A stretch of DNA of 64,000 bases. It comes from Bacteroidota bacterium (lineage in GTDB: Bacteria > Bacteroidota > Ignavibacteria > Palsa-1295). Positions within the stretch are counted from its first letter, which is position 1. The number at the start of each line of letters is the position of its first letter. Below the pieces are notes generated by a model that did not search any database, was not told the origin of the DNA, and saw only the letters and a list, made by a program, of their open reading frames with translations. Shown here one piece after another: positions 11,061 to 38,359 of this stretch. Location: positions 62,001 to 126,000 of the forward strand of contig JAFDZW010000006.1 in NCBI GenBank assembly GCA_018266755.1. Direction: 5' to 3'. A program made the position numbers and the translations under genes.

Positions 11061-11177
11061 GGTAATTGCGAGAAGTCCATTTTGGCGGACGACGAAGCAA
11101 TTTGAAATTGTGAAGATGAATACATGATCAACTTCTAAGATTGCTTCGTCGTCGCTACGCGACTTCCTCGCAATGAC
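11061..11177. repeat. Palindromic repeat, family B copy 1 (intergenic)
   Basis: Imperfect inverted repeat. The left end (GTAATTGCGAGAAG... CGACGAAGCAAT) pairs with the right end (ATTGCTTCGTCGTCG...TTCCTCGCAATGAC) around an AT-richer centre. The same arms occur in the copy inside valS at 36007-36102. It lies between two crotonase genes. Confidence 0.75.
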
Positions 11178-12863: not shown

Positions 12864-12945
12864 GTCATTCTGAGCGAAGCGAAGAATCCCTTGATGAAAC
12901 CCCGTGAGGCTCCCTCCAGGGATTCTTCGCTTCGCTCAGAATGAC
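12864..12945. repeat. Palindromic repeat, family A copy 1
   Basis: 82-bp near-perfect inverted repeat. The left arm begins GTCATTCTGAGCGAAGCGAA and runs to AATCCCT (28 bp). The right arm is its exact complement, ending CTCAGAATGAC. The asymmetric centre (TGATGAAAC...GTGAGGCTCC) recurs in copies 2 and 3. It lies in the 264-base divergent gap between the Bax-inhibitor-1 and M28 peptidase genes, which otherwise shows no gene. Confidence 0.9.
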
Positions 12946-18356: not shown

Positions 18357-18450
18357 AGTAGGACGGACACTTAGTCCGTCCGCGAGCGTAGCGAGCACTC
18401 CTTCGGCATCCTGTCACCCCAAAGAGGACGAACGAAGAGTCCGTCCTACT
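18357..18450. repeat. Palindromic repeat, family C (AGTAGGACGGA arms)
   Basis: The left end AGTAGGACGGACACTTAGTC pairs with the right end AGAGTCCGTCCTACT. Inside there is also a local hairpin GGACGGAC/GTCCGTCC and GCGAGCGTAGCGAGC. It lies in the 219-base divergent gap between mtaB and the esterase gene. No second copy was found in the window. Confidence 0.7.
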
Positions 18451-22823: not shown

Positions 22824-22906
22824 GTCATTCTGAGCGAAGCGAAGAATCCCTTGATGAAACGCAGTGAGGCTCCGCCGCAGGGATTCTTCGCGTTGCTCAG
22901 AATGAC
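22824..22906. repeat. Palindromic repeat, family A copy 2
   Basis: 83 bp with the same arms and centre as the 12864-12945 copy. There is one divergence in the right arm (CGCGTTGCTC for CGCTTCGCTC). It lies in the 268-base gap between lipA and the gyrA terminator, where no gene is seen. Confidence 0.9.
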
Positions 22907-34764: not shown

Positions 34765-35161
34765 GATCGTTCATTGCTAAGACCAATCGCTCTGCAATAG
34801 GTGCCAGATCATCTAGTGTGGCCGGACGAAGGCGATTCGGGTCAAGCTCCGCGACGTTATATACGGGCACGAGATGTAAGTGAACATGACGAACACTAAA
34901 CCCTTCAATCACTAATCCAACTCGCGGAGCATCGAATGTCTTCTTGATGACGGCAGATAATTTCTGAGCATGCCGGAAAATTGTAGAGTATTGCGGCTCT
35001 TCCATGTCAAACACATAGTCAATGTGTTGCTTTGGGACGAGCAGGACGTGACCGGGATTGATGGGTCCATTTGAGAGGAATGCCAGAAACTCGTCATTCT
35101 CCCACAATTTGTGGGAGGGCGCCTCATCACGGATGATTTTGCAAAAGATACAATCGTCCAT
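34751..35161 (-). CDS. HIT family protein
   Basis: 136 residues from the ATG at 35161 (MDDCIFCKIIRDEAPSH); an ATG two codons earlier is also possible. The histidine triad is HVHLHLVPVY, and the CIFC segment with downstream features suggests a zinc-binding HinT/Fhit-like member. NPGHVLLVPKQHIDYVFDM is conserved. HIT proteins hydrolyse nucleoside phosphoramidates, dinucleoside polyphosphates or aminoacyl-adenylates. The latter fits its position directly after valS, whose stop codon it overlaps, but this link is an inference. Confidence 0.9.
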   Translation of the reverse strand: MDDCIFCKIIRDEAPSHKLWENDEFLAFLSNGPINPGHVLLVPKQHIDYVFDMEEPQYSTIFRHAQKLSAVIKKTFDAPRVGLVIEGFSVRHVHLHLVPVYNVAELDPNRLRPATLDDLAPIAERLVLAMNDLETD

Positions 35162-38049
35162 CAGCATACCTGCTGCTCCAACTTCACCATTTGCGCTTTG
35201 AAGCTTTCGAGCTTCTCTTTCTCTTTTGCGACAATGTGGTCCGGTGCGCGAGCGATGAAATTGGCGTCGCCGAGCTTGTTCGTGATCTGCTCGACGCTCT
35301 TGGCCAGGCGTTCGATCTCCTTTTTCAGTCGGTCTTTCTCCTTGGCTGCTTCTTCGGCATTGAGCGTCTCGAGCTTCATGAAAAGCTGACCTCGGCCACC
35401 GATGAGCTCGGTCGAATATTCTTTCGGAGAAAGCTCCGCGCCTCCGTCGAGTTCGATCGCCAGCCCTTCAGCGCGACACAGCCTATCAATGATCGTTCGT
35501 GCAGAATCAGCAAGTTTCAGATCGGCGTCCGACTTCATGCGCAGCACGAACTCCGCCGGCTTGCTCGGTGCGAGTTTCGCATTCGCGCGAAGCAAGCGGC
35601 CTGCTTCGACGATCTTCTGAATAAACTCGAAGTTCGCTTCGGCAGCGTCGTCGATCTTTCCTTCATCGGCGCTGATGTAGTCGTCTTTGCCGATGAGAAT
35701 CGCATCGTCCGTACCCGTGAGCGCATGCCAGAGTTCTTCGGTCACGAACGGCATCACCGGATGCAGCATCCGCAGGATGCCCTCGAGGATCTCGACGGCA
35801 AGCGGAGTGGATTCCGGCTGCAGCTTGACGATCTCGAGATACCAATCGCAGTAATCTTTCCAGATGAAGTCGTAGAGGATTTTCGTTGCGTCGTTGATGA
35901 GGTAGCCGTCGAGTGACTTGCGGATTTCCTTCGCGGCGCGATTGGCGCGCGAGAGGATCCACTTGTCGGCGAGGGATGAAGCCGGTGCAGAGGCAAAACC
36001 TTTGGTGTCATTGCGAGGAGTCCGCGAAGCGGATGACGCGGCAATCTGAGAACTCTCGGTTTTCCCAATCATTCCAGATTGCTTCGCTTCGCTCGCAATG
36101 ACATTTTGAAGCTCTGTATCGGAAGACTCGAACTTCGGTTCCGGATGCGTCGAACGATACTCGTCGCGCTTCATGATGACGAAACGCGTGGCATTCCAGA
36201 GTTTGTTCGCGAAGTTGCGGCCGATCTCGCAGCTTTCTTCGCCGAAGCGAACGTCCTGTCCGAGCGGCGCGAGATAGAGTAGCGTGAAGCGGACGGCGTC
36301 GGTGCCGTACTTCTGCACCAAGTCGATCGGGTCGGGCGAATTGCCGAGCGACTTCGACATCTTGCGTCCCTGCTGGTCGCGGATGATATTATGGAAGTAC
36401 ACATCACGGAACGGGATGCGGTCTTCCATCGACACGCGCGGCGAACCGTCTGCCTTCGGCATCCCCTCCGTGAATTCGATGCCGCCCATGATCATTCTGG
36501 CAACCCAGAAAAAAATGATGTCAGGCGCAGTCGAGAGCAAATTGCCCGGATAGAAGGTCTGAAGATCGACCGTATTCTCCGGCCATCCGAACGTGGCGAA
36601 CGGCCAGAGCCACGACGAGAACCACGTGTCAACGACATCGGGGTCTTGCGTGAGCGGTCCGGTATAACCGGCCGTCTTCGCCTCAGCTTCGACCTCGCCG
36701 AGGTCGCGACCGACGAATATCTCGCCGTTCTCGCCGTACCACGCGGGAATGCGTTGCCCCCACCACAACTGGCGTGAGATACACCAATCCTTTATATTGG
36801 TCATCCAGTGACGGTAGGTATTGATCCACCGCTCCGGATGAAATTTGATCAGTCCATCCTCGACAACGTTCAACGCAGGCTCAGCAAGCGGCTTCATCTT
36901 GACGAACCACTGATCGCTTAGATACGGCTCGATCATCTCGCCGCCGCGCTCTGAGTATCCGACGGAATTCGTGTAGTCCTCGATCTTTTCGACAAGCCCA
37001 AGCTCCGTCAGGTCCTCGATGATTTTCTTGCGCGCAACGAAACGGTCGAGACCGGCATACTTCCCGCCGTTCTCGTTGATCGTTGCGTTCGGATGCATCA
37101 CATTGAGCTGCTCGAGGTTGTGACGCAAGCCAATTTCAAAGTCGTTCGGATCGTGCGCCGGCGTGATCTTCACGCAGCCGGTACCGAACTCCTTGTCAAC
37201 ATAGTCATCGGCGATGATCGGGATCTCGCGGTCCATCAGAGGAAGGCGAAGCTTTCGTCCGACGAGATTCTTGTAGCGTTCGTCCGACGGATTCACGGCG
37301 ACCGCCACGTCGCCGAGCATCGTCTCGGGGCGCGTGGTCGCGATGATGATCCACTCCGGCTCCCCTGCGTTGCGATCAATGAGCGGATAGCGGAAGAAGT
37401 GCAGCTTGCCTTGCGTCTCCTTATAGATCACCTCTTCGTCACTGAGGGCCGACTGTGCGAGTGGCGACCAGTTGATGATGCGCTTGCCTTTATAGATCAG
37501 ACCCTTCTTGTAGAGGCGCACGAAGGCCTCGGTCACGGCCTTGTAATAGCCTGAGTCCATCGTAAAGACGAAGCGGCGCCAATCGGGTCCGCAGCCGAGC
37601 GCGCGAAGCTGCTTCTCGATAAAGTCGTTGTGCTTGTGCTTCCACTTCCAGACCTCGGCGATGAAATCCTCGCGGCCGAGATCGTAACGGGTCTTGCCCT
37701 GCTCGCGGAGTTGCTTTTCTACTTTCGTCTGCGTCGCGATACCGGCATGGTCCGTCCCGGGCATCCAGAGGGATTCATGGCCAAGCATGCGGTGATAGCG
37801 GATATAGGTATCCTGGATCGTATTATTGAGAGCGTGACCCATGTGCAGAATACCCGTCACGTTCGGCGGCGGCATGCAGATGACGAACGGCGACTTATCG
37901 ATCGCGCGGCGACCGGTCGGGTCCTGCGGTGCCTGGTCGGGACGGTAGGCATAGAAGAGCCCGCCCGACTCCCAGTTCGAGTACCATTGCTTCTCTACTT
38001 CCTGCGGGGCATAGGCCTTCGCTAACTCTCGCTTTGCGGATTCAGACAT
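35161..38049 (-). CDS. valS: Valyl-tRNA synthetase with an in-frame palindromic insertion
   Basis: 962 residues. Class I signatures are PPPNVTGILHMGHAL (HIGH motif, about residue 68) and GRKMSKSLGNSPDP (about 561). The editing domain shows TTRPETMLGDVAVAV. The tRNA-binding C-terminal coiled coil (KEKDRLKKEIERLAKSVEQI) is complete. Between the catalytic domain and the anticodon-binding domain, residues 650-681 (VIASEAKQS...RTPRND) are encoded by a family B palindromic repeat. The insertion keeps the frame and sits in a linker before LADKWILSRAN, so the enzyme is probably active. Essential gene; the HIT and HAD genes follow with overlaps. Confidence 0.97.
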   Translation of the reverse strand: MSESAKRELAKAYAPQEVEKQWYSNWESGGLFYAYRPDQAPQDPTGRRAIDKSPFVICMPPPNVTGILHMGHALNNTIQDTYIRYHRMLGHESLWMPGTDHAGIATQTKVEKQLREQGKTRYDLGREDFIAEVWKWKHKHNDFIEKQLRALGCGPDWRRFVFTMDSGYYKAVTEAFVRLYKKGLIYKGKRIINWSPLAQSALSDEEVIYKETQGKLHFFRYPLIDRNAGEPEWIIIATTRPETMLGDVAVAVNPSDERYKNLVGRKLRLPLMDREIPIIADDYVDKEFGTGCVKITPAHDPNDFEIGLRHNLEQLNVMHPNATINENGGKYAGLDRFVARKKIIEDLTELGLVEKIEDYTNSVGYSERGGEMIEPYLSDQWFVKMKPLAEPALNVVEDGLIKFHPERWINTYRHWMTNIKDWCISRQLWWGQRIPAWYGENGEIFVGRDLGEVEAEAKTAGYTGPLTQDPDVVDTWFSSWLWPFATFGWPENTVDLQTFYPGNLLSTAPDIIFFWVARMIMGGIEFTEGMPKADGSPRVSMEDRIPFRDVYFHNIIRDQQGRKMSKSLGNSPDPIDLVQKYGTDAVRFTLLYLAPLGQDVRFGEESCEIGRNFANKLWNATRFVIMKRDEYRSTHPEPKFESSDTELQNVIASEAKQSGMIGKTESSQIAASSASRTPRNDTKGFASAPASSLADKWILSRANRAAKEIRKSLDGYLINDATKILYDFIWKDYCDWYLEIVKLQPESTPLAVEILEGILRMLHPVMPFVTEELWHALTGTDDAILIGKDDYISADEGKIDDAAEANFEFIQKIVEAGRLLRANAKLAPSKPAEFVLRMKSDADLKLADSARTIIDRLCRAEGLAIELDGGAELSPKEYSTELIGGRGQLFMKLETLNAEEAAKEKDRLKKEIERLAKSVEQITNKLGDANFIARAPDHIVAKEKEKLESFKAQMVKLEQQVC
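36007..36102 (-). repeat. Palindromic repeat, family B copy 2, inside valS
   Basis: 96 bp bounded by GTCATTGCGAG and CTCGCAATGAC. The arms continue as CGAAGCGGATGACGCGGCAATC and GATTGCTTCGCTTCG. The limits coincide with codon boundaries of valS, giving exactly 32 codons and no stop in the valS frame. Confidence 0.9.
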
Positions 38050-38359
38050 TCAGTATCGTAACGTAGTAATTGTCAAACGATAACGCATATACGGGTGGGA
38101 AGTTCGACGGCGTAGCGGAGAAATTACAGGCCAGTACGACTCTGAATTGAGCGAGAAAGATATTTACCCAACGGTCATTCTGCGCAGAGCGAAGAATCCC
38201 TGCGGCGGAGCCTCACTGTGTTTCATCGAGGGATTTTTCGCGGAGTTTACACTGAGCACAGCGAATGTGCTCAAAATGACAGTACCTCGGAATGAAGTAA
38301 TGACTTATTTCGACCATCATCGGCTCAGAAACGACTAAGAGACGGAGGGTCGACCTGTG
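38050..38359. other. 310-base gap upstream of valS
   Basis: Holds the family A repeat copy 3 and, next to valS, about 120 bases that should carry its promoter. No gene, tRNA or T-box-like specifier structure could be supported. Small frames across the repeat are spurious. Confidence 0.5.
38174..38280. repeat. Palindromic repeat, family A copy 3 (inverted, expanded)
   Basis: 107 bp, GTCATTCTG...CAAAATGAC. The centre (GGAGCCTCAC...GTTTCATC) is in the opposite orientation to copies 1 and 2. The right arm carries about 20 extra bases (ACACTGAGCACAGCGAATGT) and several mismatches, so the stem is degenerate. Confidence 0.8.

Follow-up and report, generated by a model that had tools for sequence, protein, structure and literature searches.

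An in-frame palindromic repeat in the valyl-tRNA synthetase linker of an Ignavibacteria bacterium, with evidence favoring recurrent capture of repeats at one loop

Introduction

Palindromic repeats that code for protein are best known from Rickettsia. A valyl-tRNA synthetase gene (valS) from a Bacteroidota bacterium of the class Ignavibacteria (genome G000, 3.55 Mb) appears to contain such a repeat, and the locus raises the question of how a repeat came to be read as part of an essential enzyme, and whether it arrived there once, in an ancestor, or is one of several repeats captured by the same loop. The gene lies in a stretch of 64,000 nucleotides (G000, contig C6, positions 62001-126000), referred to herein as the window, and was compared with its counterparts in related genomes.

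Results

The repeat within valS

The valS product contains the Pfam domains tRNA-synt_1 (2.8e-132), Anticodon_1 (3.4e-33), and Val_tRNA-synt_C (8.8e-12), and its nearest solved structure is the ValRS of T. thermophilus (1gax, E 7.5e-198). The features of the locus are as follows.

35161..38049, minus strand: valS, valyl-tRNA synthetase, 962 aa, assigned by its Pfam and 1gax matches
36006..36103, minus strand: 98-bp palindromic repeat (inverted REP dimer) with a 12-bp terminal inverted repeat, TGTCATTGCGAG / CTCGCAATGACA
36007..36102, minus strand: 32 in-frame codons from the repeat, residues 650-681 of ValRS
36076..36103, minus strand: simple arm, TGTCATTGCGAGCGAAGCGAAGCAATCT, read as VIASEAKQS, from the sequence
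36006..36047, plus strand: hairpin-bearing arm, TGTCATTGCGAGGAGTCCGCGAAGCGGATGACGCGGCAATCT, of the GACGCGGCAATC subtype

The core of the repeat, running from GTC to GAC (GTCATTGCGAG...CTCGCAATGAC, 96 nt), consists of 32 sense codons with no stop and is translated as VIASEAKQSGMIGKTESSQIAASSASRTPRND between the catalytic and anticodon-binding domains, within a minus-strand ORF of 962 codons. An earlier note on this DNA had claimed an in-frame palindromic insert of exactly 32 codons, with its boundaries on valS codon borders, in the linker between these two domains of an essential enzyme, and the sequence is as it stated. The inverted repeat does, however, extend one base farther on each side (T...A), like the other full copies in the genome, and the repeat unit is therefore 98 bp, which is not a multiple of three. 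Hence the claim of exactly 32 codons fits the repeat core but not the unit.

The predicted RNA fold of the insert (−48.4 kcal/mol) is far more stable than those of shuffled sequences (−26.7 ± 3.3; z −6.6; 0/200 as low), folding of the strand as DNA gives z −5.3, and the 12-bp terminal inverted repeat is stronger than those in all shuffles of the linker. That valS carries a real palindromic repeat in frame, far above the level expected by chance, is confirmed.

In an AlphaFold model of ValRS that is otherwise confident (26-row alignment, mean pLDDT 86), residues 659-681, which make up most of the insert, have pLDDT values below 50, residues 644-657 form a low-confidence helix, and confident helices (604-634 and 693-714) lie on either side. 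The same two domains of the T. thermophilus enzyme are connected by only a few residues at the corresponding place. As judged from the model, the insert probably sits in a permissive, disordered linker.

A dispersed repeat family

Copies of the repeat in G000 were gathered through sequence searches, and the whole-genome count of the arms called for by the earlier note gave 42 matches (21 + 21) to the 11-mer GTCATTGCGAG, compared with 4 (2 + 2) for the reversed control. These matches define about 26 places, two exact ends being present at about 15 of them, and one further match is a chance occurrence inside a normal gene. Full copies have a T before and an A after them and share the two-arm architecture of the valS insert, with an outer stem (TGTCATTGCGAG), an inner stem around GAAGCAATCT, and a variable center. 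Usually one arm, and in some copies both, carries an extra hairpin (GGGCTTCAGCCC, GTCCGCGTGCGGAC, GCGCGTTAGCGC, and others) in which the sequence varies but self-complementarity is kept. Short copies measure 96-138 bp, and there is also a long form of about 167-168 bp with extra internal sequence (loci L169, 1348-1797 and 3289-3456, L174, and L175), three copies of which are clustered on contig C5 near 1.385 Mb.

The copy in valS is the only clearly intragenic one among the 26 GTCATTGCGAG-type (GCGAG) places, the rest being mostly intergenic, where other spanning ORFs of at least 100 aa were dismissed as spurious or terminal by composition and position rather than by homology. The earlier note also pointed to a related intergenic copy in the window, which is indeed present, as are copies of a sister family, GTCATTCTGAG...CTCAGAATGAC.

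11062..11177, no strand assigned: related copy of the same repeat family, intergenic and partly decayed
12864-12945, 22824-22906, and 38174-38280: sister-family copies, whose usual length is 83 or about 107 bp

The sister family is the more numerous in G000 and is the most abundant dispersed palindrome among those looked at; its copy at 38174 has an additional segment. The pattern GTCATTNYGAG, which includes the sister family, occurs 321 times in G000 and 9 times in the control, and none of 29 CTGAG elements inspected (0/29) falls within a long ORF that is clearly a genuine gene. The exact 26-mer of the simple arm is also found in four related genomes (G006, G007, G008, and G012) and in six more genomes of the phylum sample. 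Target-site duplications were not evident by eye in the full G000 copies, the consensus element had no match among plasmids, and a literature search with the literal repeat sequence returned only apparently unrelated primer or sequence matches. Two other repeats were noted in G000, an inverted repeat unrelated to the element (AGTAGGACGGACACTTAGTCCGTCC / GGACGAACGAAGAGTCCGTCCTACT) around the boundary of two ORFs at 18357-18450 of the window, and paired CCCCGCCTTGAAAAGGCGGGG palindromes, the repeat of the G007 valS gene, at C5:1025416-1026186 and C6:195219-195840.

Relationship to known repeats

REPs with a CGTC or TGTC tag have stems that start with AT, form dimers, and occur in frame in many bacterial species, with tRNA synthetases among the host genes; they have no dedicated flanking transposase and are found in Chlorobi and Bacteroidetes among others (PMC3733652). 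Rickettsia RPE-4 and RPE-6 count among these tagged dimers. The Rickettsia parallel drawn in the earlier note holds, but in-frame palindromes are not unique to that genus. The valS element resembles these REPs in its terminal tag, AT stem start, opposite-orientation dimers, and mostly intergenic distribution with some copies in genes, as judged from the published description. Both ends of the valS element and of full genomic copies read TGTC-ATTGC...GCAAT, C or T precedes GTC in most of the copies found in relatives and in the sister GTCATTCTGAG family, and the 42 11-mers spread over about 26 places are in keeping with the high, dispersed copy number of CGTC REP dimers. The element differs in that its arms often have an extra, sequence-variable hairpin and its tails are CT(A/G) or CC/CCC, not CCA. 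Compared with the published stem of 8-9 bp and loop of 4-5 nt, the simple arm can be accommodated only if its stem is interrupted, and the hairpin arms are longer.

The Rickettsia elements RPE-4, RPE-6, and RPE-7, as described for the R. japonica genome, are found in frame in conserved genes such as PheRS beta, IleRS, and DNA polymerase III, with an ATGAC motif and with different groups at the same site (PMC3767692), and their in-gene inserts are 68-192 bp in length at solvent-exposed sites (PMC3767692; PMC2229807). The valS element is similar in insert length, in its ATGAC palindrome ends, in being read in frame in conserved genes, and in having different groups at the same site of an ortholog, although it comes from a different phylum and, apart from the shared ATGAC terminal motif, the likeness is one of description. 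Insertion of the RPE type in conserved genes was found here in valS, metG, Eco57I-like methylases, and E2, AsnB-like, and methyltransferase-like genes, with disorder predicted for valS only. A difference is that the GTCATTGCGAG family in G000 is overwhelmingly intergenic.

REPINs mobilized with RAYT (GTAG-type; PMC3116915) are likewise short inverted REP pairs that are dispersed and non-autonomous, but the valS insert has no GTAG tag and the RAYT-like genes of G000 are not flanked by the element. Searching G000 for the Y1_Tnp family gave five (RAYT-type) matches, none of which is flanked by a pair of copies; at one of these loci a copy does occur at a distance of about 0.6 kb, on the far side of a GroES-like ORF. 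The same search of G006, which has three clear in-gene copies, detected no Y1_Tnp gene. A RAYT/REPIN origin is thus unsupported.

The valS linker in related genomes

A valS gene is present in 13/13 family genomes examined, and the closest named relative found is an 'Ignavibacteria bacterium' MAG with 70% identity. The linker, measured from GRNFANKxxNA...MKR to L(A/S)DKW, spans 43-65 aa among family members, compared with 34 aa in three genomes from another family of the class. The clean gap of 32 codons that the earlier note expected in relatives was not seen at valS in any of the family members examined, since the linker of each relative differs (43-65 residues).

Two relatives, G006 and G012, have the same kind of element in valS, starting at the identical codon after DTELxN. 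The G000 and G006 inserts have the right arm in common, with a compensatory change in the hairpin, as well as the ACAC.AAA flank and peptide ends of the form IAAS(S)xSxTPRNDTK, while their centers are unrelated. From these sequences, they most likely represent one shared insertion. The valS tree places G000 with G006 and with G002, which lacks the element, and puts G012 in the other clade, implying either that this codon received an insertion twice or that a single insertion was followed by many losses. Two independent insertions at one codon would need an explanation, either a small permissive window or common ancestry. The three carriers (G000, G006, and G012) are also the top three of the 13 genomes in number of GTCATTNYGAG matches (321, 174, and 129), a coincidence noted post hoc that has a chance of 1 in 286 if the genomes are independent, which G000 and G006 are not.

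Four other relatives (G007, G008, G010, and G011) have unrelated inverted repeats at the valS site, three of which are clearly abundant in their own genomes. The G007 repeat (CCCCCGACTTTTCAAGGCGGGGG...CCCCCGCCTTGAAAAGGCGGGGG) has 32 strand-matches (16 sites) in G007 and none in the control, and the GGATAGTGGA / TCCACTATCC arrays of G008 and G011 have 37 and 31 matches in their own genomes and 0 in 8/13. The AGTGGCGAGTG inverted repeat of G010 has few relatives within that genome. The inverted repeats of G007, G008, and G010 are stronger than those in all shuffles, and that of G011 by itself is not (p 0.11).

Could all of these linkers descend from a single insertion in the ancestor of the family, which has since diverged or been replaced in the separate lineages, as has been suggested for RPE-4, RPE-6, and RPE-7 of Rickettsia? 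The common start codon in G000, G006, and G012 is what such a history would give, every family member has a linker longer than the 34 aa of the other family, G001 retains an in-frame TCATTGCGA 9-mer in its linker, and the same pattern has been described in Rickettsia, where the choice between a hot spot and a single diverged insertion was left open (PMC3767692). Against this, most of the other linkers have no significant similarity to the element, several hold the unrelated and mostly abundant repeats described above, G012 belongs to a different clade and has its right arm read in another frame, and many parallel losses would be needed. Eroded remnants were looked for in the other linkers and gave only weak matches (G001, G003, and G011; p 0.02-0.05), which are mostly inconsistent in position and frame, and for this reason we do not adopt an ancestral origin, which we regard as unlikely. 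Recurrent capture or replacement of repeats at one loop is favored over a single origin. Different REPs are known from nearly the same site of recB in X. campestris and X. oryzae (PMC3733652).

G000 has a single copy of the GACGCGGCAATC arm subtype, the one at the valS locus, while G006 has six and G002 has two, and since the subtype is nowhere else in G000 the insertion is not recent there and must have been inherited or acquired. Horizontal transfer or gene conversion from a G006-like relative would account for this distribution and for the placement of G000 by G002 and G006 rather than by G001, its genus mate by database label. The identity between the G000 and G006 valS genes, however, stays at 84-89% throughout and does not change abruptly around the insert, and the key forks of the tree are only modestly supported (83/79 and 87/83), with G001 being partial, which makes transfer improbable.

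In-frame copies in other genes

The clean empty sites that are lacking at valS are provided by metG and the Eco57I-like methylases. The G006 metG gene has the element in frame in the loop after FPAMxxxxN, which is 44 aa compared with 12-13 aa in seven relatives, and in four more genomes the loop has 20-29 aa of other sequence. Different short repeat-like inserts were observed in the metG loop before KLSKS in G012, G007, G009, and G002 (L240-L243), such as GTCGGGCGCCCTCGCCCGAC in G009 and a CATCCCTCATCC array in G007. The loop before KLSKS is apparently a second capture site besides valS. The element is also in frame in an Eco57I-like methylase of G006 and, elsewhere along the protein, in the homologous methylase of G005, each being empty at the position where the other is filled.

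Half-elements are in frame in an E2 acyltransferase of G007 and an asparagine-synthetase-like (AsnB-like) gene of G315, and a copy lies within a gene of G177 that resembles a DNA methyltransferase, all three genes being named by reading their sequences. The earlier suggestion that the repeat family can seed protein segments is upheld by the in-frame copies in relatives. A further G006 copy adjoins an outer-membrane-protein-like gene (L186, around 1076), where the repeat end GCAATGACA may supply the ATG start.

Seven intragenic cases were identified by DNA pattern rather than by peptide (valS of G000/G006, valS of G012, metG, the G006 methylase, and the genes of the E2, AsnB-like, and methyltransferase-like types), and in 7/7 the arm is translated as VIASEAKQS, although five read-outs are open. 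If the count is limited to the three sense frames, the probability of this by chance is about 5e-4. Selection may therefore tolerate the VIASEAKQS peptide best, and the constant frame also accounts for the repeat boundaries falling on valS codon borders.

Discussion

We propose, with a probability of roughly 0.86, that a non-autonomous REP dimer landed in the ValRS linker and was kept as a tolerated in-frame loop. The element would consist of two facing CGTC/TGTC-type REP units with their tags on the outside, palindromic and with no gene of its own, and would presumably be moved by an enzyme acting in trans. Having landed in the loop that joins the catalytic and anticodon-binding domains, it would be translated as a 32-residue loop that is most likely near-neutral. 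Survival inside a gene would require a suitable length and frame, stop-free reading, and a permissive loop, probably under purifying selection, and we suggest that the valS insertion survived because the frame was kept, no stop was introduced, and the linker is permissive and probably disordered.

The strong hairpin, the peptide ends kept between G000 and G006, and the single reading frame in the seven unbiased cases could instead be taken to mean that the repeat was retained for a useful mRNA hairpin or peptide, in regulation of valS or as a new interaction surface. Yet most valS orthologs have other sequences of other lengths in its place, the central part is wholly different between G000 and G006, the insert is mostly disordered by prediction, and the one RPE-bearing enzyme that has been assayed, the Gmk of Rickettsia, is active with altered substrate affinity, the RPE being judged neutral or slightly detrimental (PMC2229807). 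A useful function is hence very improbable, and the valS insert is best viewed as one that a permissive loop tolerates. Dispersed repeats often cause misassembly, but an assembly error at this site, the artefact envisaged in the earlier note, is rejected because G006 has an orthologous copy with its own substitutions, and the preserved reading frame and the restriction of the subtype to valS in G000 also speak against it.

A broader proposal is that the valS linker and the metG loop before KLSKS are, in this family, true hot spots that time and again capture whichever palindromic repeats are active in a lineage, with mobile repeats rather than point mutation as the main source of new residues in them, and this we hold tentatively, at somewhat less than even odds.

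In-frame repeats of this type are already known, and the novelty here lies in the organism and in the comparison among relatives, which points to recurrent capture at a single loop. The presence of unrelated repeats, several of them abundant, in the same ValRS loop and apparently in a MetRS loop favors repeated capture or replacement, and the family offers a cleaner test of a hot spot versus a single origin than does Rickettsia. The pairs of filled and empty sites, together with the VIASEAKQS reading in 7/7 cases, are useful for understanding how short repeats become protein segments.
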